A stretch of 64,000 nt of DNA from Streptomyces sp. NBRC 109706 (GTDB lineage: Bacteria > Actinomycetota > Actinomycetes > Streptomycetales > Streptomycetaceae): the NCBI RefSeq assembly GCF_000974485.1, contig NZ_BBOM01000006.1:496001-560000 (forward strand), in the 5' to 3' direction. The notes under the pieces were generated by a model that saw only the letters and a program-made list of their open reading frames with translations, searched no databases and was not told the origin of the DNA. Made by a program: the position numbers and the translations under genes. Below, in pieces: positions 23,779-60,204 of the stretch (positions are counted from its first letter, which is position 1; every line of letters starts with the position of its first letter).

Positions 23779-24657
23779 CTACTTGCGGTTGTAGAGCCGC
23801 ATGGTCAGGGTGCCGAAGACCCCGATCAGCAGCGCGGCGGCGATTGCCACCCAACCCAGCTGGGCCGCCTCGACGTTGCCGTCCATCAGCCCGCGCACCG
23901 CGGCCACCACCCGGGTGATCGGGTTGACGTCGACAAAGGCCTGGAGCCAGCCCGGCATGGTGTCGGGCGAGACCATGATGTTGCTGAGGAAGCTGGCCGG
24001 GAACAGCACCATCATGCTGACGCCCATCACCGACTTCTCCGAGCGGAGCAGCAGACCGAACATGGTCCACACCCAGGAGAAGGCGAACGAGAAGCCGACC
24101 AGCAGCGCGATGCCGAGCACCACGCCGACCGGGCCGCCGTCCGGGCGGTAGCCCAGGGCGAGACCCAGCAGCAGGATGACCGTCGACGCCATGGTGTAGC
24201 GCAGCACATCGCCCAGCAGATAGCCGACCATCGCCGAGGGGCGCCACACCGGCAGGGTGCGGAAGCGGTCGAACACCCCCTTGGCGATATCGGTGTTGAC
24301 CGCGATGCCGGTGTACATGGTGGTCATCACCACGCTCATCACCATGATCCCGGGCAGCAGGAACTGCAGGTACTCGGTGGTCGAGCCGGCCAGCGCGCCG
24401 CCGAACAGATAGGTGAACATCAGCGTCATCATGACCGGGAAGATGGTCACGTCGATCAGCTGTTCGGGGACATGCTTGATCTTGAGCATGGCCCGCCAGC
24501 CGAAGGTGACCGAGGCGGAGAGCGGGCTGGGGCGCGGCGGCCGCTCCGTCTTGGCCAGCACCGCGGCCAACGAGGCGCGGTCCGCCTCGAAGTCGTCCGC
24601 CGTGTCCGCCGGGGCGGCCACGCCGCTCTCGTTGCCGATGTCCGTCGCGGTGCTCAT
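23779..24657 (-). CDS. ABC-2 type multidrug exporter permease (DrrB-like)
   Basis: A 292-residue permease with six helices after a 50-residue cytoplasmic segment. [20 protein letters not shown] near residue 63 and the [18 protein letters not shown] loop near residue 115 are typical of DrrB-type permeases. It overlaps the ATPase gene by ATGA, so both are made together. Such pairs export antibiotics or lipids; the substrate here is unknown, since no biosynthetic cluster adjoins. Confidence 0.88.
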
Positions 24658-25709
24658 GCCACGGTCTCCTTCTTCTGGTCCTCCTGGTCGGACCGCTGCG
24701 TGTCGATGGTCGGGGCGCCCCCGACGGACGGGGTGGGGCGGGTGGGCTTGCCGGTCAGGGACAGGAACACCTCGTCGAGGCTGGGCTGGCCCAACGCGAA
24801 GTCGTCCACCGTGATCCCGCCGGCGGCCAACTCGCCCAGGGCCGCCGCCGCGCGCTCGGCCGGGCCGAGCGTCCCCTCCTCGGGCAGCAGCCTGGCGGTC
24901 AGCGAGACCGGATCGGAATCCAGCGCGACCTCCGTGCCGAGGCGCCTGGCCAGCACCTCGCGGGCCGCCTCGCGCTGGTCCCGGTCGCGCAGCCGGACCC
25001 GCACCGAGCCGGCGCCGACCGAGGACTTCAGCTCCCCCGGGGTGCCCTCGGCGATCACCCGGCCCGTGTCGATCACCGCGATCCGGTCCGCCAACTGGTC
25101 GGCCTCGTCCAGATACTGGGTGGTGAGCAGCACGGTGGTGCCCTGGGCGACCACGGCGCGCACGATGTCCCACACCTGGTTGCGGCTGCGCGGGTCGAGC
25201 CCGGTGGTGGGCTCGTCGAGGAACAGCAGATCGGGGGTGTTGAGGATGCTGGCGGCGATGTCGACGCGCCGCCGCATGCCGCCCGAGTAGTTCTTCACCT
25301 GCTTGTCGGCCGCCTCGGTCAGCCCGAACGCCTCCAGCAGCTGGGCGGCGCGGGCCCGGGCCGCCGGCTTGCGGTGGCCGAGCAGCCGCGCCAGCAGGAT
25401 CAGGTTCTCCGCGCCGGTGAGGTCCTCGTCGACGGAGGCGTACTGCCCCGTCAGACTGACCCGAGAGCGCACCGCGTCCGCCTCCCGCAGCACGTCGTGC
25501 CCGAACACCCTGGCCTCGCCGCCGTCCGGGCGGAGCAGCGTGGCCAACATCCGCACGGTGGTGGTCTTGCCGGCGCCGTTCGGCCCGAGCACCCCGTAGA
25601 CGCTGCCGGCCGGTACGGCCAGATCGACGCCGTCCACGGCGCGCAGGGCGCCGAAGGTCTTGACGAGACCGGACGACTCGATCGCCAACCCGTCGTTGCG
25701 CTCACTCAT
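24654..25709 (-). CDS. ABC exporter ATP-binding protein (DrrA-like)
   Basis: A 351-residue ATPase. Walker [10 protein letters not shown] near residue 43, signature [12 protein letters not shown] near 142, Walker [13 protein letters not shown] near 163, and switch [11 protein letters not shown] near 198 are intact. The C-terminal 100 residues form the DrrA accessory domain, including [18 protein letters not shown] disordered tail (residues about 325-351) ends in [13 protein letters not shown] 25709 has AAAGGA five bases upstream; GTG 25712 is possible. It is first gene of the exporter operon. Confidence 0.9.
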
Positions 25710-25799
25710 CACATTCCTTTCACCTGGGAGAACGCTGAGGTAGACCGTTCGGGGGAGAAGAACTCATCGCCCGTACGGTCGAATTTTCGTTCGGATTTT

Positions 25800-32426: not shown

Positions 32427-34199
32427 TCACTTCGACGGCTTGCGGAGGCTGAGGTGCAGCTCCCGGAGCCGGGCCTCGGAGACCTCGTTGGGCGCGCCCA
32501 TCAGCAGGTCCTGGGCGTTGCCGTTGAGCGGGAAGGCGATGGTCTCGCGGATGTTGGGCTCGTCGGCCAGCAGCATCACGATCCGGTCCACACCCGGGGC
32601 GATCCCGCCGTGCGGCGGCGCGCCGTAGTGGAAGGCGCGCAGCATGCCGCCGAACTCGCGCTCGACCTCCTCCTTGCTGTAGCCGGCGATCTCGAACGCG
32701 CGGTACATGATCTCCGGCTCGTGGTTCCTGATCGCGCCCGAGGACAGCTCGATGCCGTTGCAGACGATGTCGTACTGCCAGGCCAGCACGTCCAGCGGAT
32801 CCTTCTCCGCCAGCGCTTCGAGGCCGCCCTGCGGCATGGAGAACGGGTTGTGCGAGAACTCGACGGCGCCGGTGTCCTCGTTCCGCTCGTACATCGGGAA
32901 GTCCACGATCCAGCAGAAGCGGAAGACGTTCTCCTCGAAGTGCCCGGCGCGCTTGGCGGCTTCGACCCGGACCGCGCCCATGATCTTGGAGACCTCGTCG
33001 AACGCGCCGGCGCCGAAGAAGATCGCCGTGCCCGGCCCGGCCTTCAGCCGACCGGTGAGCGCCGCCACGTTCTCCTCGGTGAGGAACTTGGCGATCGGCC
33101 CGCTGAGCGCGCCGTCCTCGCCGACCCGGACCCAGGCCAGGCCCTTGGCGCCCTGGGCGATGGCGAACTCGCCGAGCTGGTCGAAGAACTTCCGCGGCTG
33201 GGCCGCCGTGTCGGGCACCGCCAGGGCCCGCACATGCTTGTCGGCGAACGCCTTGAACCCGGAGCCGGCGAAGACGTCCGAGACATCCACCAGCTCCAGC
33301 TTGGCCCGCAGATCCGGCTTGTCGGAGCCGTACCTGAGCATCGCCTCACGGAACGGGATGCGCGGGAACGGGGAGGTGACATGCCGGCCGCCGCCGAACT
33401 CCTCGAACAGCTCCGTCATCAGCTTCTCGACGACGGTGAAGACATCCTCCTGCTCGACAAAGCTCATCTCGACGTCGAGCTGGTAGAACTCGCCGGGCGA
33501 GCGGTCGGCGCGGGCGTCCTCGTCGCGGAAGCAGGGCGCGATCTGGAAGTACCGGTCGAAGCCGGCGACCATCAGCAGCTGCTTGAACATCTGCGGCGCC
33601 TGCGGCAGCGCGTAGAACGTGCCGGGGTGCAGCCGGGAGGGCACCAGGAAGTCGCGCGCCCCCTCGGGGGAGGTAGCCGAGAGGATCGGCGTTGACAGCT
33701 CGGTGAAGCCGAGGTCCGTCATCTTGCCGCGAATGGCCGAGATCACCCGCGAGCGCAGCATGATGTTGCGGTGCATCCGCTCCCGACGCAGATCGAGGAA
33801 GCGGTACTCAAGCCGACGCTCCTCGTTCACCCCGTCGTCGGCGTTGATGGTGAACGGGATCTGGTCGGCCGCGCCCAGCACCTCGACCGCGGCGACCTCC
33901 ACCTCGATCTCCCCGGTGGCCAGCTCCGGGTTGACGTTCTCCGCGCCGCGCTCCACCACCCGGCCGTCGATCCGCAGCACCGACTCCTTGCTCAGCGAGC
34001 TCAGCCGCTCCAGGACCGCGTCGGCGCCGGGGGCGTCCGGGTGGACCACCAGCTGCGTGATCCCGTAGTGGTCCCGCAGGTCGATGAAGAGGATGCCGCC
34101 CAGGTTCCGGCGATTGTGCAGCCAACCGGCGAGCCGGACATCGGAGCCGATGTCAGCCGAACGCAGTGCGCCGCAGGTGTGGGACCGGTACCGATGCAT
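32427..34199 (-). CDS. aspS: aspartyl-tRNA synthetase
   Basis: A 590-residue class IIb synthetase charging tRNA-Asp. An N-terminal OB-fold anticodon-binding domain (about 1-110; [21 protein letters not shown]) is followed by the class II core with motif 2 around [19 protein letters not shown] near residue 220, the bacterial GAD insertion (about 300-420), and motif 3 [14 protein letters not shown] near 550. Length and domain order fit the bacterial type. In actinobacteria, which have GatCAB, such enzymes may also mischarge tRNA-Asn. It is divergent from the PP2C gene, 122 bases away. Confidence 0.97.
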
Positions 34200-34321: not shown

Positions 34322-36481
34322 ATGCGCACCGAGGACGTGCTGGCCGCCGCCGGGGTCGGGGTGTGGACCTGGGACGACGCCAGGGGCGTCGTCACCATGG
34401 ACGCCGTCGCCGCCGAGTTGTTCGGGCTGGCCAGGGAGCCCGTGGTGCTGACCGAGGCCACCGTCCGGGCCCGGATCCATGTCGAGGACTTCACCGTGAT
34501 CGAACGGGTGGTCGCCCTCGCGGCCAGCGACGAGGAGGAGGCGGGCAAGGCCAGAGAGGTCGAGTTCCGGCTGGTCGGCACCGACAACGAGGTGCTCGCC
34601 CGGCTCCGCAGCCGGGTGCGCACCATCGACCCCAGCGGCGGCACTCCGACGCCAGGGGCGGGCTCGTTGTCCCTGGTCGGCATCATGGTCGAGGCCACCC
34701 CCTCCGATCAGCGGGAGCTGGGCGGCGACTGGGAGACCACCCGCGCCAGGGAGACCTTCGTCCTGCGCACCGGACAGGCGCTGTCCGAGGCCAACAGCGT
34801 GCACGAGGTGCTGCGGGTGGTCGCCACGCTCACCATGCCGGGCTTCACCCCGGACGGCGTCGCCGTCTACGATCGGCAGGGCGACCATCTGCGGATGCTG
34901 GAGTACCAGGGCCGCGAGCTGGACTTCACCGCCCTGGGCTTCCCGATGCCGATGGACAGCGACTATCCGGCGGTCGAGGTGATCCGCACCGGGCGCGCCG
35001 TCTATGTGTCCTCGCCCGAGGAGTACGCCGAGCGCTATCCGCATATCTGGCCGGTGATCGCCCCGCTGCAGCGCAGCTCCTGGGCCTATCTGCCGCTGGT
35101 GGTGGCCGGCCGCACCATCGGCGTCTGGCTGGCGGCCTTCGACTACCAGCTGGAGTTCAGCTGGCAGGAACGCGCCACGTTCAGCAGCATCGCGCGGATG
35201 GCCGCCCAGGCGCTCTCCCGGGCCACCCTCAACGACACCGAACGCGAACTGTCGGCCGACCTCCAGCACGCCATGGGCCCCAGCCCCATGCCCAGGGTGC
35301 CGGGCCTCGCGATCGCCGCCCGCTATGTCCCCACCGGCGCCGGACTGCAGGTGGGCGGCGACTGGTACGACGTGATCCCGCTGCCGTCGGGACGGGTGGC
35401 CCTGGTCATCGGGGACGTCCAGGGCCACGATGTGCGGGCCGCCGCGCTGATGGCGCAGCTGCGGATCGCGCTGCGCGCCTACGCCTCCGAGGGACACCAC
35501 CCGGACGCGGTGCTCACCCGCGCCTCGCGCTTTCTCGCCGCGCTCACCCCCCAACCGCCCGAGGGCCTGGGCCCGGACGAGCGGGACGTTCCCGAGCAGC
35601 CCTCGGCGCCCAGCGACAGCAGGTTCGCGACCTGCCTCTATGTCGAGGCCGACCCCCGCTCCGGCACCTTCGACATGGCCCGCGCCGGCCACCCCGAGCC
35701 CGCGTTGCTCCTCGACGACGGCGCGATGCAGCCACGCCCGACGGACGGCGGGCCGCCGCTCGGCGTCGACCTGAGCATGGACTACCCGGTCACCCGGGTG
35801 AACCTGCAGCCGGGACAGACGCTGCTGCTCTGCACGGACGGGCTGTTGGAGACGGGCAGACGGGATCTCGACGCCGGCTGGGAGCGGATCCGCCGCGTCG
35901 TCGCCGGACTCCCGGGATCGGGCCTCGAACAGCTGGCGGACAGCCTGATCGAGTCCGTGCACATCGCGGAGGACGAGGGCCAGGACGACGGCCACCACGG
36001 GAACGAGGACGATATCGCGCTGTTGCTGCTGCGCCGCGAGGAGACCGGCCGCGAGGTGCCGCGCGGCGGCACCCCGGTGCGTCGTTTCGTGCTGAACGTG
36101 GGCCAGTCGGAGCCGGCCAGGATCGCCCAGGCCCGCAGCCAGCTGACCGGTCTGCTGCACGACTGGAAGGACCACGACGTGGTGCACGGCGCGGCGCTGA
36201 TGCTCTCCGAGATCCTCACCAACGTGCTGACCCACACCGACGGGGACGCGCTGATGGTCGCCGAGGTCAGCGGGGTGGTCGGGGACCGTCGGCTGCGCGT
36301 CGAGGTGACCGACGCCAGCGACAAGCTGCCACACCGCAGGGAGCCGGGCGAGCTGGCGTCGTCCGGCCGTGGCCTGCTGCTGATGGAGGCCCTGGCCGAC
36401 TCCTGGGGCGCCCATCCACGCGGCGACGGCAAGACCACCTGGTTCGAGCTGGGCGAACACTCGACGGCGGGCCGGGACTGA
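34322..36481 (+). CDS. PP2C-type SpoIIE phosphatase with PAS, GAF and HATPase domains
   Basis: A 719-residue protein. A PAS-like N-terminus (AGVGVWTWDDARGVVTMDAV at about 10-29) is followed by a GAF domain (about 140-300), a SpoIIE/PP2C phosphatase (about 320-510) with VGGDWYDVIPLPSGRVALVIGDVQGHD including the metal-binding Asp residues, and an anti-sigma-type ATPase (about 590-710; LSEILTNVLTHTDGDA). This matches RsbU/RsbW-like regulators that control sigma-factor partner switching in response to signals. It is cytoplasmic. It is divergent from aspS and convergent with the lasso cluster. Confidence 0.9.
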   Translation: MRTEDVLAAAGVGVWTWDDARGVVTMDAVAAELFGLAREPVVLTEATVRARIHVEDFTVIERVVALAASDEEEAGKAREVEFRLVGTDNEVLARLRSRVRTIDPSGGTPTPGAGSLSLVGIMVEATPSDQRELGGDWETTRARETFVLRTGQALSEANSVHEVLRVVATLTMPGFTPDGVAVYDRQGDHLRMLEYQGRELDFTALGFPMPMDSDYPAVEVIRTGRAVYVSSPEEYAERYPHIWPVIAPLQRSSWAYLPLVVAGRTIGVWLAAFDYQLEFSWQERATFSSIARMAAQALSRATLNDTERELSADLQHAMGPSPMPRVPGLAIAARYVPTGAGLQVGGDWYDVIPLPSGRVALVIGDVQGHDVRAAALMAQLRIALRAYASEGHHPDAVLTRASRFLAALTPQPPEGLGPDERDVPEQPSAPSDSRFATCLYVEADPRSGTFDMARAGHPEPALLLDDGAMQPRPTDGGPPLGVDLSMDYPVTRVNLQPGQTLLLCTDGLLETGRRDLDAGWERIRRVVAGLPGSGLEQLADSLIESVHIAEDEGQDDGHHGNEDDIALLLLRREETGREVPRGGTPVRRFVLNVGQSEPARIAQARSQLTGLLHDWKDHDVVHGAALMLSEILTNVLTHTDGDALMVAEVSGVVGDRRLRVEVTDASDKLPHRREPGELASSGRGLLLMEALADSWGAHPRGDGKTTWFELGEHSTAGRD

Positions 36482-36683
36482 CCCGGCCCGCCGTCGCCCC
36501 CAGTCCTCGCCCGGCACCCGGCCGAGCCGCCCGGCCCCGGCGCCGCCCCGTCCGGCGAGCACACGGGCCGGCGCGTCGAAGTCCTGCCGCCAGGGCGACG
36601 ACAGCCCGGCGTCGACCCCGACCCGGACGGCTCCCGCGCGGCGCTCCTCGCCGATCTGCTCGGCTCCCGCCCGCCCCTGACCG

Positions 36684-37115
36684 TCAGGGCGTCCGCTCCG
36701 GCTCGCCGAGTGGGGGGACGCTCAGCAGGACGCGGTAGGAGTGCACCTCGTCGGGCTCGCCGACGCGGCGGCGTTCGGCTTCGACCCAGGCGTGGGCGGC
36801 GAAGGGCGGGGTGCGGACTCCGCTGCACCACGTCGGCCACACGCCGCGCATCCGGCACAGCAGCACCGTGGCCAGGGAGCGCTGGAGGCAGTACGTGCCG
36901 GCGCAGCGGGTGGAGGTCGTCGTCACATGGCTCCGGGCACGCAGTGTCTCCTCGTGGGTCGCGGGGGTCGCGCGGTTCCGTAGAACGCGCAGGACGGCGA
37001 CGATCCGCCTGGGGGGCTGGCGTGCCAGCAGCCGTGCCGCGAGCACCACCAGGTGGACGGGGACGCGGCGGAGCAGGGACGGGCGTTCGCCGGAGATGTC
37101 CAGGATCTGGCTCAC
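36684..37115 (-). CDS. lasso peptide B2 protease
   Basis: A 143-residue transglutaminase-like cysteine protease. The segment GTYCLQRSLATVLLCRMRG near residue 72 holds the nucleophile Cys, AHAWVEAE near residue 108 the His, and EPDEVHSYRVLL near residue 120 a likely acidic partner, as in LarD/McjB-type leader proteases. It removes the leader from the precursor while the cyclase works. It starts at GTG 37115, overlapping the B1 stop as GTGA. It is the last gene of the four-gene operon; no transporter follows within the 202 bases before the convergent phosphatase gene. Confidence 0.88.
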   Translation of the reverse strand: MSQILDISGERPSLLRRVPVHLVVLAARLLARQPPRRIVAVLRVLRNRATPATHEETLRARSHVTTTSTRCAGTYCLQRSLATVLLCRMRGVWPTWCSGVRTPPFAAHAWVEAERRRVGEPDEVHSYRVLLSVPPLGEPERTP

Positions 37116-37387
37116 GACGCGTTCCCCGCCTCGATCAGCCGGGCGCGGGTGAGCTGGTCCACGAGCGTGCGGATGTCCTCGGCCGCCCGGTCCGCGGTGA
37201 CGGGCTGTTTCCGGGAGAGTTCCGCGGCGATCCGTTCCACCGCGGCGCCGCCGAGCAGGCCGCGGACGATGGCGGCGCCGGTGGCGTTGAGCTGCCAGTA
37301 ACGGCCGCGGCGGCTGTCCAGGAGGACCAGGCCGTCCTCGGTGTCGCAGCTGACGACATCAGGACTCAGTCGCGGGCTCGGGCTCAT
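37112..37387 (-). CDS. lasso peptide B1 (RRE, PqqD-like) leader-binding protein
   Basis: A 91-residue PqqD-like RiPP recognition element. DGLVLLDSRRGRYWQLN (residues 18-34) and GAAIVRGLLGG form the winged-helix core that grips the leader peptide, and the helical AAVERIAAELS end completes it. It presents the precursor to the B2 protease. It overlaps the cyclase gene by 29 bases and the B2 gene by four, so all are coupled. ATG 37387 was chosen as the only start giving a complete fold. Confidence 0.88.
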   Translation of the reverse strand: MSPSPRLSPDVVSCDTEDGLVLLDSRRGRYWQLNATGAAIVRGLLGGAAVERIAAELSRKQPVTADRAAEDIRTLVDQLTRARLIEAGNAS

Positions 37388-39218
37388 GGGTGTGCTCCTC
37401 CAGGTAGCGCGGGGCGGGGTGCCGTTCGAGGGCGCGCAGCCAGGATTCGAGGGTTACCGAGGCCTCGGCGGGGGGACCCTCGTGGGCGGGCAGCGTGCCG
37501 GGGCTGAGCCAGGCGCGGGCCAGGGCGCGTGGCTCGGCCAGCCCGGCGGCGACCAGACGCGAGTCCTCCAGCCAGCCGGCGAGGGTGCGCCGGTGAACCC
37601 GCATGCCCCGATGCCACTCCGGGGTGGCGTTTCCCTTCGTGGTGCGGTCCAGCAGTGGCTGCGGGACGATCCCGCGCATGGCGGTGGCCAGCAGCGGCTT
37701 GTACGCCCAGGGGGTCGTGGCCTCGTGCGGTCGCACCCGCAGGCAGGCTTCGAGGATGGCGTCGTCGCAGAAGGGCATGTCCAGCGCGATGCCCAGGCGG
37801 TCGTAGAGCAAGGCGACCCGTCCGGACTGCTGGGCCATGTACAGCCACAGGTGCCTCCCGCGGGTGTCCGCCAGCGGCTGGGTGCGGGTGGCCGCCTCGC
37901 GCAGCAGCCCGGCGGTCGACTCCCGTGCCTGGTCCGTGGCCCAGTGCGGGAGGGACATCGCCAGGCCCCAGCCGAGCCTGACATCGCCGGCCGGTCCGCG
38001 GTCCCCCGTGACGCGTCCGGCCTCGGCGGTGAGCCAGGCCCCGAACGGGCGCCGGTCGGCCAGTGCCCGGACCGTGGCCGTGCGGGGCCAACGCTCCTTG
38101 GCGGCGTAGGCGGCCAACTGGCGTGTCGCGCGCCGCGGTTCGCGCCGCAGCAGATCGTGCAGGTACGAGGGCGGCGGGATCACCAGCTGGTCCCCGCCCT
38201 GTCCGCACAGCCGCCGCGTCACCCCGTACGCGTGCGCCACACCGGCCAGATGCTCCTGCTGGGCCCGGTCGCGGATGCCCAGCGTCGGCTCGTCCTCCGG
38301 CTCGCCTTCGTCGAGGCCGGTGTAGTACGAGGGCAGCTCGGTGGCATCGAAGACCAGGTGTGGGGTGTCGGACGGGAGCCCGGCGGCGGCGCGGCGCGCG
38401 TAGGCGACGTCCTCGTCACCCGGCGCACCCGGGTCCAGTGTCAGGGTCACCAGCTCCGCGCCCGCCTCCGCGGCCAGGAAGCACAGCGAGGTCGAGTCCA
38501 TACCGCCGGAGAGGTCGGCAGCCCACCGCCGGCCGGGCGCCACCCGTGCGCGCACCGCCGCGCGCAGGGCCTCTCGAAGGCCCTCCGCGCCCTCGGCGAG
38601 GGGGAGTTCGGACTCCGGGGGCTGCCACCAGCGGCGTTCGGCGGCTTCGCCCGCGCGTTCCAGCAGGACGGCCTGCCCCGGGGGTACGGCCCGGACGCCC
38701 TCGAAGAACGACGCCTGATCGAGAGGGAACGGAGGCGTTGCCACCGAGACGAGCCGCGAGGCCACCTGGCGGAGGTCCACCGCGGCCCCGGTGAACCGGG
38801 CGAGGGTACGGGCGCGGTCCGCGACGACGGTGACGCCGTCCACCTCGGCGCGGTGGAGCCGCCGGCTGCCGGACGCCGTACCCCGGGCGTACACCCGGCC
38901 CGCCACCGAGGCGAGCAGGAAGTGGTCGCCCGCGCTCCCCCGGACGGCCGTCTCCACATCGGAGACGGCGCGTACGGCCCGTGCGCGCCCGCGCAGTCGC
39001 TCGGTGTCCAGCGTGCTGACCCCCAGGACGGCGAGCCGCACGTCACCCGCCTCGGCGAGGCGTGCCGCGGATGCGTCCCAGCAACCGGCCAGCCAGGGAC
39101 GTCCGGAGGCGTGCCGGACCACCTGGCAGCCGGTGTTCCGGACGCGCTCGAAGACGGCGGACGCCGCCTCGTGGTCCGGAAGGACCACGAACCAGCGTCC
39201 GCCCACGGAATGACCCAT
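37359..39218 (-). CDS. lasso peptide cyclase (asparagine synthetase-like, C protein)
   Basis: A 619-residue cyclase. The N-terminal part (about 1-190) resembles the glutaminase domain but lacks Cys2 (the protein begins MGHSVGGRW), as expected of lasso cyclases. The synthetase domain has the ATP-binding loop ADLSGGMDSTSL near residue 243 and CGQGGDQLVIPP near residue 335. It adenylates the core Asp side chain and joins it to the N-terminal Gly. Its ATG lies four bases after the precursor stop, giving coupled translation. Its 3' end overlaps the B1 gene. Confidence 0.92.
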   Translation of the reverse strand: MGHSVGGRWFVVLPDHEAASAVFERVRNTGCQVVRHASGRPWLAGCWDASAARLAEAGDVRLAVLGVSTLDTERLRGRARAVRAVSDVETAVRGSAGDHFLLASVAGRVYARGTASGSRRLHRAEVDGVTVVADRARTLARFTGAAVDLRQVASRLVSVATPPFPLDQASFFEGVRAVPPGQAVLLERAGEAAERRWWQPPESELPLAEGAEGLREALRAAVRARVAPGRRWAADLSGGMDSTSLCFLAAEAGAELVTLTLDPGAPGDEDVAYARRAAAGLPSDTPHLVFDATELPSYYTGLDEGEPEDEPTLGIRDRAQQEHLAGVAHAYGVTRRLCGQGGDQLVIPPPSYLHDLLRREPRRATRQLAAYAAKERWPRTATVRALADRRPFGAWLTAEAGRVTGDRGPAGDVRLGWGLAMSLPHWATDQARESTAGLLREAATRTQPLADTRGRHLWLYMAQQSGRVALLYDRLGIALDMPFCDDAILEACLRVRPHEATTPWAYKPLLATAMRGIVPQPLLDRTTKGNATPEWHRGMRVHRRTLAGWLEDSRLVAAGLAEPRALARAWLSPGTLPAHEGPPAEASVTLESWLRALERHPAPRYLEEHTHEPEPATES

Positions 39219-39222
39219 CAGG

Positions 39223-39360
39223 TCAGACGAGGGGGCGGAACCCGGAGAAGTCCCACCAGTGGCCGATCCCGCCCTGAGTCATCTCGGTGTAGCCGCCGGC
39301 CTCGGCCAGCACCGGGGCCTCGTAGACCTCGGTCTCCTCGATCTCCAGCTCTCGTTCCAT
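39223..39360 (-). CDS. lasso peptide precursor (A), 45 residues
   Basis: The gene codes 45 residues and is preceded by AAGGAAGG. Its leader has the conserved actinobacterial pattern Y13-x2-P16-x-L18-x3-G22-x-Y24 and a Thr at the penultimate leader position (T28-Q29). Cleavage after Q29 gives the core GGIGHWWDFSGFRPLV (16 residues). Gly1 and Asp8 define an eight-residue ring; the tail is FSGFRPLV. No Cys is present, so it would be a class II lasso peptide held by bulky residues, for example F12 or R13. The cyclase gene starts four bases after the stop. I do not recall a characterised lasso peptide with this core. Confidence 0.88.
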   Translation of the reverse strand: MERELEIEETEVYEAPVLAEAGGYTEMTQGGIGHWWDFSGFRPLV

Positions 39361-39455
39361 GGCATACCTTCCTTCCACGCGACGGGCATGCGCCGGGCGG
39401 TGAGCGGCAGCCGTCCCGCACCGCGCCTGCTGACGACTCAGTGTGAGGGGCGCCG

Positions 39456-39496
39456 CTTTCGTCGAGCTTTCACTATCCGCAGGAACGCACTTTCAC
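39456..39496 (-). promoter_or_regulatory. CTTTC repeats upstream of the lasso operon
   Basis: CTTTCG at 39456, CTTTCAC at 39467 and CTTTCAC at 39490 (plus strand), with start distances 11 and 23 bp, lie about 100-135 bp before the precursor start. Same-face direct repeats fit an activator-binding site, for example SARP-type, for the lasso operon. No clear -10 or -35 element can be assigned. Confidence 0.35.
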
Positions 39497-39533
39497 CAGG
39501 ACAGCCTTGGAGGTCGCGCAGCTGGGCGGGCGC

Positions 39534-39742
39534 TCATGGGCGTCGCTCGGGGCGCTCGTCCCAGCGGCGGGTGGTCCAGGCTTGGCGGATCAGGCTACGG
39601 ATGGTGATGATCGTGTCCGCGAGGTCGAAGAAGGCGTTCCGCCAGGCGTGCATGCGTGCGTGCGCTCGCCACGCCACCGCTGGCTCGGCGCCTTCTCTCC
39701 CTTGTGCGCGATGCGGCCGTGCACATCGCGGGCGGCGAGTCG
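39534..39742 (-). pseudogene. decayed IS5-type transposase, C-terminal remnant
   Basis: Two frames together read as the end of an IS5-family transposase. The first (39742 downwards) has RDVHGRIAHKGEKAP and QRWRGERTHA. The second has HAWRNAFFDLADTIITIRSL and AWTTRRWDERPERRP before TGA at 39534. A frameshift sits in ACGCACGCATGCACGC (about 39646-39661), apparently an 8-bp duplication. From memory of the family, a stretch between AWRNA and FFDLA is also missing, implying a deletion. No N-terminal part or inverted repeats were seen, so this is a fossil. It lies between the lasso operon and the pirin gene. Confidence 0.75.
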
Positions 39743-39777
39743 TGGCGGTTCGCCCCGCCTATCACTGAGCGGTGGTC

Positions 39778-40758
39778 TCAGCCCTGCGCCGGCCCCTCCG
39801 CGTTCATGCCGTGGACGGTGGGAACGGTGCCGAGGCGGCCCTTTTGGAAGTCCTCGAAGGCTTGTTGGAGTTCGTCGCGGGTGTTCATGACGAAGGGGCC
39901 GTAGTGGGCCATGGGTTCGCGGATGGGTTGGCCGCCGAGGAGGATGACGTCGAGGTCGGGGGTGTGGGCGTCCTGTTGGTCGTCGGCGCGGATGGTGATC
40001 GAGTTGCCCTTGCCGTAGACGGCGGTCTGGCCGGTGTGGATGGGGCGACGGTCGGGGCCTGCGGTGCCGCGGCCGGCGAGGGTGTAGGCGAGGGCGTTGA
40101 AGTCCTCGCGCCAGGGGAGGGTGAGTTCGGCGCCGGGGGCGAGGGTGGCGTGGATGAGGGTGATGGGGGTGTGGGTGGCGCCGGGGCCGGCGTGGCCGTC
40201 GAGTTCGCCGGCGATGACGCGGAGCAGCGCGCCGCCGTCGGGGCTCGTGAGCAGGCCGACGCTGGTGCTGCGGAGGTCCTGGTACTTGGGGGCCATCATC
40301 TTGTCCCTGGCCGGCAGGTTGACCCACAGCTGGATGCCGTGGAAGAGGCCGCCGGACATGACCAGGGACTCGGGCGGCGCCTCGATGTGCAGCAGTCCGG
40401 AGCCGGCGGTCATCCACTGGGTGTCGCCGTTGGTGATGGTCCCGCCGCCGCCGTGGCTGTCCTGGTGGTCGAATATCCCGTCGATGATGTAGGTGACGGT
40501 CTCGAAGCCGCGGTGCGGATGCCAAGGGGTCCCCTTGGGCTCACCCGGGGCGTATTCCACCTCGCCCATCTGGTCCATCATGATGAACGGGTCGAGGTGG
40601 CGGTAGTTGATGCCGGCGAAGGCGCGGCGGACGGGGAAGCCCTCGCCCTCGTAGCCGGTGGGGGCGGTCGTCACGGCGAGCACGGGGCGCGCCACGGCGC
40701 CGGCGGGGGCGGCCACGCGAGGCAGGGCCAGGGTGTTCTCGACGGTGATGGCAGGCAT
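39778..40758 (-). CDS. pirin family protein
   Basis: A 326-residue double cupin. The metal site is PWHPHRGFETVTYIIDG near residue 78-94 (His and Glu ligands), with HLDPFIMMDQMGEVEY before it and AGSGLLHIEAPPE at 120-132 in the N-cupin. The C-cupin (about 180-300) is degenerate. Pirins are iron proteins, some with quercetinase activity or roles in central metabolism. ATG 40758 has GGAGG nine bases upstream. An AT-rich palindrome about 52 bp upstream is a likely operator. Confidence 0.9.
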   Translation of the reverse strand: MPAITVENTLALPRVAAPAGAVARPVLAVTTAPTGYEGEGFPVRRAFAGINYRHLDPFIMMDQMGEVEYAPGEPKGTPWHPHRGFETVTYIIDGIFDHQDSHGGGGTITNGDTQWMTAGSGLLHIEAPPESLVMSGGLFHGIQLWVNLPARDKMMAPKYQDLRSTSVGLLTSPDGGALLRVIAGELDGHAGPGATHTPITLIHATLAPGAELTLPWREDFNALAYTLAGRGTAGPDRRPIHTGQTAVYGKGNSITIRADDQQDAHTPDLDVILLGGQPIREPMAHYGPFVMNTRDELQQAFEDFQKGRLGTVPTVHGMNAEGPAQG

Positions 40759-40809
40759 GGCAAACAACCTCCTCGAACGGCGTTCCGGTGGGAACGTGTG
40801 TCCGAGGTT

Positions 40810-56578: not shown

Positions 56579-59425
56579 TCACCCCGCGCGCCGCGCCAGG
56601 GGCACCCGCGACCGGGTCAGCAGCGCCGCCAGCAGCCAGGCGATCAGCGGGACGACCACCAGCAGCTGGAGGAACGTCATCCAGGGCAGCTCGATCAGCA
56701 GCTCGGGACGCGGGCCCAGCTCGCTGCCCATGCCCCACCAGCGCTCCCAGTTCCGCACATTGGCCCGGTACTCGGTGAGCCGCAGCCCGATCGCCGGGAG
56801 CAGCCCGGAGAGCGCGCCGAGGAACACCCCCATGGCCGCGATCAGTCCGCACTGCAGCCCGGCGAGGCTGCGGCGCATCCTGGGCGTGGCGCCGACGGCG
56901 GAGAGGGTGGCCAGATCCGGCTCGGCGTCGGCCTGGGCCAGCCCGGTGGCGATCCCGGCGGCGCCGATGGTGATCACGGTGGCGACCAGCGCCAGGACCA
57001 GCAGCGCCAGCGAGTTGTCCGCGTCGTAGCCCTTCTCCACATAGAACCAGAGGTAGCTGCCGAGACGCTCGAACTCGGCGTCCACCGCCTGCTGTTCGGC
57101 GCCGCTCGGGGCGCGGCTCAGCTGGTAGAAGGTGCCCAGGTCGAACTCGGCCAGGCCGAGCGCGGCGGCCGTCTCGTGCGTCATCACCACGGTCGGCGCG
57201 GACACGTCCCCCGGCAGCGCGTGCGCCGGCAGCGAGATCTCCTCCTCCGGCGGGTCGGCGCGCTGGCCCGAGTCGTTCCACTCGATGTCGTCGGCGACCT
57301 GGGTCCGGTAGAGGCCGAGCGTCACCGTCCCGTCGTCGGTCAGATAGTCGGGGTGGGCGACGACCGCCTCGCCGGCCTCAAGCGCTGCGGTCGCGGCCGC
57401 GTCGCCGATGCCCAGCTCGGTCAGCGTCTCGGCGGGGCCGATCAGCACCATGCTCTGGCCGTGCAGCCACTGGGTGGCCCCGCAGACCGGCCGCTGGGCC
57501 AGATCGCGGAGTTCGGCGGCGGGCAGCTCCGACTGTCCCTCCCGGTACAGCGGGCACTCCGTCTCGCCCGGCAGCAGCGGGATCACCTCGCCGCAGTACA
57601 ACTCCTCGTCGCCGTACTCGGAGTCGGCGCCGGTCGACGCGCACTCGCCGGGCGCCGGCAGCGCCCGCGCCAGGTCGATCTCGCTCTCCACCGGCAGTTC
57701 CTTGGCCACGGCGGCGCGGGCGCCGCCCAGATCCCGGCCGGCGTCCGGCATCATCGCGAAGACGCCGGCCGTGTTCATCGGCAGCGTCTCCTCGTACTGG
57801 GCGCGGTTCTCCGCGTCGTCGCTGACCATCACGGTGGCGACGGACACCGTGCCGGCGACGGCGGCCAGCACGGCGGCGACCGCCGGCGCGGTGCGGCCCC
57901 GGTTGCGGGCCGCGTCGCGCAGCGCCAGCCGCCCGGTCAGCGGCAGGAACCGCGCCAGCCGGCCGAAGCCGCCGACCAGCATCGGGGTGAGCGCGACCAG
58001 GCCCAGCTCGGCGATCACCGCGCCGGCGGCCACCGCCAGCGTCTCCCCCCAGAACCCGCCCAGCAGGGCCAGCGCGGCGCCGAGCACCAGGGCGATCCCG
58101 CCGACCAGCGGCAACGCCCGCCCGCCGGCGCGCACTCCGCGCCGACCGGTCAGCGAGGCGAGCACGCTGCTCCGCGCCGCGTTGTACGCCGGGATGACGG
58201 CGGCCAGCAGGCCGATCAGCACCGCGAAGACCGCGATGCCGGCCAGCTCCAGCGGCCGGAAGTCCCAGGAGCCGAACCGGCTGCCCAACTGCTCCTCGAT
58301 CAGCGGCCTCGCCAGCACCGTCAGCAGCACGCCGACGACCAGCCCGACGACGGCCGCCGCCGCGCCCAGCACCACGCCGCTCGCCAGCATCACCGCGCGC
58401 AGCTGCGGCCGATGGCCACCGTTGGCGCCGATCAGGCCCAGCATCCGGCGGGATCTGCGGGCGCTCACCGCGAAGGCGGGCCCGGCCAGCAGACAGATCT
58501 CCAGGATCACCAGGGAGACGGCCACCACGGCGACCGCGACGACCTCCCCCTGGACGGTCGACCCCGCCGTCAGCTCCCCCGTCCCGGGCGGCAGCTGGTC
58601 GGCGGGCGGCGGGTTCAGCACGACCTCGCGTGAGGTGACGAAGAAGCCGTGCTCGTTGGCCGCCAGCACCGTCGCCCAGTCGACGCCCGCCTCGCCCGGC
58701 ACCTGGACCAGCAGTCCCGGGCGGTCCCAGGGCTCCTGCCGGAGCGCGCTGCCCGGCAGCGCCGTCAGATGGTTCTGGTCGATCTCGTCGGGCAGCTCAT
58801 AGCTGCCGGTGACGGTGAACTCGGTGCCCTCGTCCAGGGGTTGGCCCCAGTGGCCGAGGGTCAGCGTGTCCCCGACGGAGAGCCCGCCCTCGTCGAGCAG
58901 CGCCTCGCTGGCCGCGATCTCGTCGGGCGATTCGGCGAACCGGCCCTCCTTCAGATCGTGGATCCCGGCCACCGTCGGATCCGTCGCGTCCATCTCCTGG
59001 ATCTCGGACTCGGTCACCCCGTGCTCGGTGCCGACCCGCATCCAGTTGCTGTTCTCGTAGACCATCGTGGCGCCGTCGGGGAGCAGCGGCCCCAGCAGGG
59101 CCTTCAGCTCCTCCTCGGAGCGCCAGGTGGGCTCCTCCCAGTCCTCGGACCACTCCTCGACGGATGACCACTCGACGGCGTCGGGGGCCTGCACGATCGG
59201 GTTGCCGTCGTTGGACCACACGAAGTGCGCGTCGGCCGCGCCGAGATCCCGGTCCAGCTGTTCCTCGGTGGAGAGTTGGCCGCTGCGCAGCGCCAGATCG
59301 ACGGCCGTCGCGCCCAGGATGGGCAGCGCGATCATGGCCACCACCAGGGCGCTGCGGCCCTTGGCGCGCAGCGCGTCGCGGCGGGCGATGCGCAGCGCCA
59401 GCCGCCAGTTGTGTCGTCCGCTCAC
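56579..59425 (-). CDS. ABC transporter permease, MacB/FtsX-type, fused double unit
   Basis: A 948-residue permease with two FtsX-type blocks. An N-terminal helix (LVVAMIALPILGATAVDLAL) leads to a large extracellular domain (about 60-290), three helices (about 300-420), a further set near 440-545, a second extracellular part (about 560-800) with eight cysteines, and the last three helices (LALLVLALVATVITIGAAGI near 825). Such FtsX-like proteins act as mechanotransmitters in peptide-antibiotic resistance or signalling. It overlaps the ATPase gene by four bases. Confidence 0.9.
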   Translation of the reverse strand: MSGRHNWRLALRIARRDALRAKGRSALVVAMIALPILGATAVDLALRSGQLSTEEQLDRDLGAADAHFVWSNDGNPIVQAPDAVEWSSVEEWSEDWEEPTWRSEEELKALLGPLLPDGATMVYENSNWMRVGTEHGVTESEIQEMDATDPTVAGIHDLKEGRFAESPDEIAASEALLDEGGLSVGDTLTLGHWGQPLDEGTEFTVTGSYELPDEIDQNHLTALPGSALRQEPWDRPGLLVQVPGEAGVDWATVLAANEHGFFVTSREVVLNPPPADQLPPGTGELTAGSTVQGEVVAVAVVAVSLVILEICLLAGPAFAVSARRSRRMLGLIGANGGHRPQLRAVMLASGVVLGAAAAVVGLVVGVLLTVLARPLIEEQLGSRFGSWDFRPLELAGIAVFAVLIGLLAAVIPAYNAARSSVLASLTGRRGVRAGGRALPLVGGIALVLGAALALLGGFWGETLAVAAGAVIAELGLVALTPMLVGGFGRLARFLPLTGRLALRDAARNRGRTAPAVAAVLAAVAGTVSVATVMVSDDAENRAQYEETLPMNTAGVFAMMPDAGRDLGGARAAVAKELPVESEIDLARALPAPGECASTGADSEYGDEELYCGEVIPLLPGETECPLYREGQSELPAAELRDLAQRPVCGATQWLHGQSMVLIGPAETLTELGIGDAAATAALEAGEAVVAHPDYLTDDGTVTLGLYRTQVADDIEWNDSGQRADPPEEEISLPAHALPGDVSAPTVVMTHETAAALGLAEFDLGTFYQLSRAPSGAEQQAVDAEFERLGSYLWFYVEKGYDADNSLALLVLALVATVITIGAAGIATGLAQADAEPDLATLSAVGATPRMRRSLAGLQCGLIAAMGVFLGALSGLLPAIGLRLTEYRANVRNWERWWGMGSELGPRPELLIELPWMTFLQLLVVVPLIAWLLAALLTRSRVPLARRAG

Positions 59426-60204
59426 CGCGCGCTCCCGCCGGCCAGCAGCGATTCGGCCGAGCTGGCCGACGACTCGTCCACCACGGTGCCGTCCCGCAGG
59501 AAGACCACCCGGTCCGCCCAGGCCGCGAAGCGCGTCTCATGGGTCACCAGCACCACGGCCGCGCCCTGGTCGCCCCGGTGGCGCAGCAGCGCGAGGACCG
59601 CGTCGCTGGTCTCGGTGTCCAACGCGCCGGTCGGCTCGTCGGCGAGCAGCAGCCTGCGGTCGCCGACCAGCGCCCGGGCGATGGCCACCCGCTGCTGCTG
59701 GCCGCCGGACATCTCGTCCGGGAACCGGTCGGCGACCTCGGTCAGGCCCATCTCCGCCAGCGCGGCCAGCGCCTCCCCGCGCGCCGCGCGGTGCGAGACG
59801 CCGTCCAGCTCGCGGGGGAGCGCGATGTTCTCGGCCGCGGTGAGCGCGGGTATGAGGTTGTAGTCCTGGAACACATAGCCGACCGAGGTGCGGCGGATCC
59901 GCGCCAGCCGGGCCCGGCTGAGCCGGCCCAGATCCCGGCCCTCGACCAGCACCTGCCCGCCGGAAGCGGTGTCCAGGCCGCCGGCCAGCGTCAACAGCGT
60001 CGACTTCCCGGACCCGGAGGGGCCCATCACGGCCACGAACTCCCCGGCCCGCACGGTCAGATCGACGCCGCGCAGCGCGTGCACGGCCGCCTCCCCGTTG
60101 CCGTGGACCCGGGTCAGCCCGCGCAGCTCCAGCACGGCCGCGCGGTCCGGCCCGGCGCCGGCCCGTTCGGTTGGGTGATCGTTCGTCTCGTTCGCCTCGC
60201 TCAT
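59422..60204 (-). CDS. ABC transporter ATPase, MacB/LolD-type
   Basis: A 260-residue ATPase. Walker A GPSGSGKST near residue 64, Q-loop FQDYNLIPALT near 113, signature MSGGQQQRVAIARAL near 167, Walker B LLLADEPTGALD near 188 and switch VTHE are intact. It pairs with the downstream FtsX-type permease (four-base overlap) and follows padR (four-base overlap), so the operon is padR-ATPase-permease. Confidence 0.95.
   Translation of the reverse strand: MSEANETNDHPTERAGAGPDRAAVLELRGLTRVHGNGEAAVHALRGVDLTVRAGEFVAVMGPSGSGKSTLLTLAGGLDTASGGQVLVEGRDLGRLSRARLARIRRTSVGYVFQDYNLIPALTAAENIALPRELDGVSHRAARGEALAALAEMGLTEVADRFPDEMSGGQQQRVAIARALVGDRRLLLADEPTGALDTETSDAVLALLRHRGDQGAAVVLVTHETRFAAWADRVVFLRDGTVVDESSASSAESLLAGGSAR

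Follow-up and report, generated by a model that had tools for sequence, protein, structure and literature searches.

A predicted class II lasso-peptide gene cluster at a variable genomic site in Streptomyces

Gene content of the locus and enzyme families

The window, that is, the whole 64-kb stretch of DNA analysed here, comes from Streptomyces sp. NBRC 109706. Reading of its ORFs reveals four genes in the order A, C, B1, B2 on the minus strand, from 39360 down to 36684 (Table 1). A four-ORF operon at this position had been proposed in the first-pass annotation and is confirmed, with all frames open and the coordinates exact. A gap of 4 bases separates A from C, C and B1 overlap by 29 bases, and B1 and B2 overlap by 4 bases. 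The G+C content by codon position is coding-like for A, C, B1 and B2 alike. The sequence GGAAGG sits six bases 5' of the start codon of A, and a second in-frame start for this gene, a GTG, is located 18 bases upstream of the ATG. No promoter- or terminator-like site appeared in a scan, which carries little information because shuffles give merely 0.1 and 0.3. Rfam (gathering threshold) and tRNA scans across the whole window returned no match.

Table 1. Features of the lasso-peptide locus and its flanks, in window positions
Feature	Position	Strand	Remarks
aspS, next beyond the phosphatase	32427-34199	(-)	
SpoIIE-type phosphatase with GAF and HATPase domains, left flank	34322-36481	(+)	PF07228, PF13185, PF13581
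B2, transglutaminase-like leader peptidase	36684-37115	(-)	143 aa, GTG start; NF033537 and PF13471
B1, PqqD-like leader-binding protein (RRE)	37112-37387	(-)	91 aa; NF033530 and PF05402
C, asparagine-synthetase-like lasso macrolactam cyclase	37359-39218	(-)	619 aa; SGGMDS = residues 237-242; PF00733
Precursor A	39223-39360	(-)	45 aa from ATG; leader MERELEIEETEVYEAPVLAEAGGYTEMTQ, predicted core GGIGHWWDFSGFRPLV
Remnant of an IS5-family transposase gene (3' end, decayed), lying between precursor and pirin	39534-39720	(-)	ORF match and DNA alignment
Pirin, right flank	39778-40767	(-)	PF02678/PF05726

Three of the four proteins (A, B1 and B2) exceed lasso-specific curated cut-offs in NCBIfam, and C exceeds that of Asn_synthase in Pfam. 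B2 reaches 114.4 bits with NF033537 (cut-off 33) and is also above the cut-off of PF13471 (Transglut_core3). B1 reaches 98 bits with NF033530 (cut-off 70) and is above the cut-off of PF05402 (PqqD), whereas the lasso leader model NF033521 recognises A barely above its cut-off, at 20.5 versus 19 bits. C scores 121.2 bits with PF00733 (cut-off 21). Its best curated name would be NF033561, the albusnodin/ikarugamycin family of macrolactam cyclases, but the score of 249.4 bits is below the curated cut-off of 300, and C was therefore left outside this family.

Among solved structures, B1 matches TfuB1 (6jx3, E 2.7e-11) and TbiB1 (5v1u, E 8.1e-4). The sole match of C at E ≤ 0.001 is beta-lactam synthetase (1jgt, E 5.7e-7), and B2 has no match at E ≤ 0.01. 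In an alignment of 29 hand-picked cyclase rows, which also underlies the tree discussed below, S237, G238 and G239 of C are invariant, and conservation is 97% at D241 and S242. C76 and H108 of B2 are invariant wherever a row of the corresponding 24-row alignment has a letter. Profiles, solved-structure matches and conserved residues together predict B1 to be the RRE protein and B2 the cysteine peptidase of a class II lasso cluster, and PF00733 with its conserved motif points to C as the ATP-dependent cyclase.

The precursor and its predicted product

According to PMC10368454, YxxPxL occupies positions -17 to -12 of lasso leaders, and Thr is residue -2. The leader of A, counted back from Gln(-1), agrees with this rule, having Thr at -2, Leu at -12, Pro at -14 and Tyr at -17. 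Together with the NF033521 score, these positions describe A as a lasso precursor. The strict pattern Y..P.[LIV]...G.[FY]...T, which was composed after this leader had been seen, has a single match across all six frames of the window, the one in A, and none in 200 residue-shuffled copies; a looser leader pattern has two matches in the window, A and one elsewhere.

Taken on its own, C also resembles a general asparagine synthetase, as would be expected if these were chance ORFs or a gene of that kind with an unrelated role. The probability of this is negligible: the adjoining A, B1 and B2 exceed lasso-specific cut-offs, the shuffled copies lack the leader pattern, and C falls within a clade of cyclases that have precursors alongside.

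PMC7549694 describes the lasso ring as 7-9 residues closed by Asp or Glu, and class II as lacking cysteine. The predicted core begins with Gly1, is free of Cys and has Asp8 as its only acid, and thus provides an acid suited to a ring of that size in a cysteine-free core. Since Asp8 is the sole acid, a Gly1-Asp8 cysteine-free class II lasso peptide is predicted, with the ring GGIGHWWD and the tail FSGFRPLV. Allowing for the loss of one water, its monoisotopic mass is calculated as 1811.890 Da.

By analogy with the known pathway, the four-gene operon would supply the 45-aa precursor, whose leader B1 would bind via YxxPxL. B2 would cleave after Gln(-1), adjoining Thr(-2), and C would spend ATP, activate Asp8 and couple its side chain to the amine of Gly1. 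With the tail FSGFRPLV held through the ring during closure, a disulfide-free class II lasso peptide would result, and an unlinked transporter would export it. The cleavage point, ring, threading, expression and export, like any activity, are extrapolated here from the known pathway. No transporter is present among the neighbours examined by Pfam (aspS, the phosphatase, pirin, an SseB-like protein and an acyl-CoA dehydrogenase). Two ORFs distant from the cluster, at 24654-25712 and 59422-60204, resemble ABC ATPases by eye.

Topology cannot be told from sequence, and the same enzymes might instead yield a different product, an unthreaded branched macrolactam. This is very unlikely, as both the leader rule, in the form given in PMC10368454, and the families of the genes are those of lasso clusters.

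Known lasso peptides and related cyclases

Class II actinobacterial clusters with split B1 and B2 genes, such as that of TfuB1 (6jx3), have an A, C, B1, B2 set like that of the window. They also have in common with it the leader YxxPxL and Thr(-2), and the B1 protein of the window matches the solved TfuB1. We take TfuB1 (PDB 6jx3) to belong to the fuscanodin cluster. The fuscanodin core as listed in PMC12427821, WYTAEWGLELIFVFPRFI, differs from the window core.

Comparison of the window core with 57 of the 62 cores in Table 1 of PMC12427821 gave no likeness beyond chance to any of these 57. The best whole-core match, 5/16 positions with anantin and ulleungdin, is equalled or surpassed by 75% of shuffled cores. 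The best inner-ring match, 3/6 positions with microcin J25, caulonodin VII and arcumycin, is reached by 35% of shuffles against the same 57 cores. Anantin and ulleungdin also have an acid at position 8 and have G1, I3, G4, D8 and G11 in common with the window core. Different cyclases are accompanied by different cores, and two of these (loci L113 and L018) have exactly the sequences listed for anantin and ulleungdin. The cyclases of these two loci are 41% and 40% identical to that of the window and belong to a different clade. Membership of the anantin/ulleungdin group was rejected on account of this separation and of a core likeness within chance. The ring of the microcin J25-like RNA polymerase inhibitors (GGAGHVPE) was likewise rejected, as 3/6 inner positions are within reach of shuffles. 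Achromosin, compared by its core alone as listed in PMC12427821 and with its ring deduced here, has G1, W7 and D8 in common with the window core but differs in the rest of the ring and in the tail.

The core string of the window and two sister-core strings (those of G265 and G181, see below) are absent from the literature text searched, which comprised neither figures and supplements nor most subscription papers. The core sequence is new among the peptides compared; the type of gene cluster is common and well understood.

A match to the cyclase at E ≤ 1e-30 is found in 145 of 392 genomes of the genus. In a family-level draw, which shares genomes with the genus-level one, 26 of 394 genomes from 4 of 17 genera have a match at E ≤ 1e-110; both counts include the genome of the window. 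The closest cyclases, with 59-60% identity, are those of G265 and G181 (genus draw) and G636 (family draw). Searching with the leader pattern located their precursors, whose C-terminal sequences are GFRGHRWDGWSGFHRWG, GFRGFSWDGWGGFHRWG and GFRGHHWDGWAGFGHKWW; all three clusters are ordered A-C-B1-B2. All four cores share G1, G4, W7 and D8, that is, GxxGxxWD, while the sister cores have tails such as GWSGFHRWG in place of FSGFRPLV. The cyclase tree unites the window with these three in one clade (support 100/99). None of the flanking ORFs is common to the window and the three sister clusters; G265 and G636 share one flank with each other. The view that A, C, B1 and B2 form a minimal lasso set, already taken in the first-pass annotation, is thus supported by the profile matches, the solved-RRE matches, the layout in relatives and the cyclase tree.

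The four-member GxxGxxWD clade could represent an uncharacterised subfamily that spread horizontally among Streptomyces and in which the common ring and the differing tails act on a target new for lasso peptides, a proposal that we consider doubtful. Among plasmids, the cyclase matches 18 records at E ≤ 1e-30, none with at least 60% identity; the best among the matches listed has 37%.

One of the sister clusters, that of G265, has damaged B1 and B2 genes. There, the beginning of B1 is fused to the final part of B2 with a shift of frame (L076 5091-5382), which makes the cluster look broken. At a cyclase locus of the same family in S. hoynatensis (L078/L084; L084 10001-11830), A, B1 and B2 were not recognised beside the cyclase. 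Judging from the sequences of these two loci, decay of such clusters happens.

The probable insertion site

The cluster had been described as lying beside aspS and the phosphatase gene. The phosphatase gene does abut B2, in convergent orientation; aspS is one gene further. On the other side, pirin has a match at E ≤ 1e-60 in 385 of 392 genomes of the genus, its own included. Thirteen pirin neighbourhoods were retrieved from among the best pirin matches. In 11 of them, phosphatase and pirin matches lie on one piece, 137 to ~3130 bases apart, and lasso genes were matched in none of the 13. The gap between the two genes (36482-39777 in the window) varies in its contents: it consists of 137 bases in G211, contains an AI-2E transporter gene in L067 and a GmrSD-type gene in L065 (8177-10300), and extends over ~22 kb in G156. 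Among eight loci whose gap was inspected at ORF level, four (L067, L068, L072 and L073) have a similar membrane-protein ORF in it, the one in L067 being the AI-2E transporter identified by Pfam. The GmrSD-type protein of L065 has a C-terminal 6-O-methylguanine methyltransferase-like DNA-binding domain (PF01035).

Close relatives provide a more direct comparison. In G271 (pirin 90%), the gap has 58.7% G+C and contains a GmrSD-type gene, and blastn homology between this genome and the window ends at the end of pirin. The gap of G156 (pirin 90%) holds other genes, including one for an RHS/nuclease protein, and in G037 (pirin 92%) the contig ends 98 bases beyond the pirin match. A cyclase match at E ≤ 1e-30 is absent from all three genomes. 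Because the gap contents vary among relatives and homology with G271 stops at pirin, the lasso genes resemble an insert that is particular to this lineage and occupies a variable site.

Upstream of the precursor gene, on the side of pirin, the ORF at 39534-39677 corresponds to the C-terminal 44 residues of a transposase annotated as IS5 (NZ_CP108048.1), 32/44 being identical. The DNA alignment, made with the stretch 39500-39720, continues with internal gaps to 39720, the limit of the stretch used. This decayed element is absent from the first-pass annotation. Pfam assigns no family to the fragment by itself, and 35 of 150 genomes of the genus, its own included, have a match to it. The IS5-family element may have taken part in the insertion of the lasso genes. 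The remnant and the differing contents of the site in relatives both speak for an insertion between conserved genes, as originally suggested.

Pirin is not regarded as linked to lasso biosynthesis. In G403, a pirin gene (L116 2259-3284) is situated ~3 kb from a lasso cluster, but it is a second copy, with 68% identity versus 75% for the other copy. In G265, G181 and G636, pirin and the lasso cluster are on different contigs. The proximity is therefore taken as coincidence.

The decayed IS end directly upstream of the precursor, the broken sister cluster in G265 and, weakly, the lack of a promoter-like match in the scan would fit genes that are intact yet silent, or that have begun to decay since their insertion, so that this strain makes no product. 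This possibility, which overlaps with a functional cluster as to what the genes encode, deserves some weight, although it is the less probable one. Against it, none of the four frames is interrupted and their codon use is coding-like, the conserved positions are retained, and GGAAGG precedes the start codon of A. With its genes intact and its conserved positions kept, the cluster is inferred to be functional. The locus is thus very probably an ordinary, likely functional actinobacterial lasso-peptide cluster that was acquired into a variable site.

Lasso clusters are common in the genus, and this one is a further member, not a new type. Neither the predicted peptide nor the variable site changes the understanding of lasso peptides. 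The cluster adds to genome-mining lists one predicted lasso peptide of specified mass and ring, together with a small sister group with a common ring motif, and the phosphatase-pirin site accepts differing inserts among the relatives examined.
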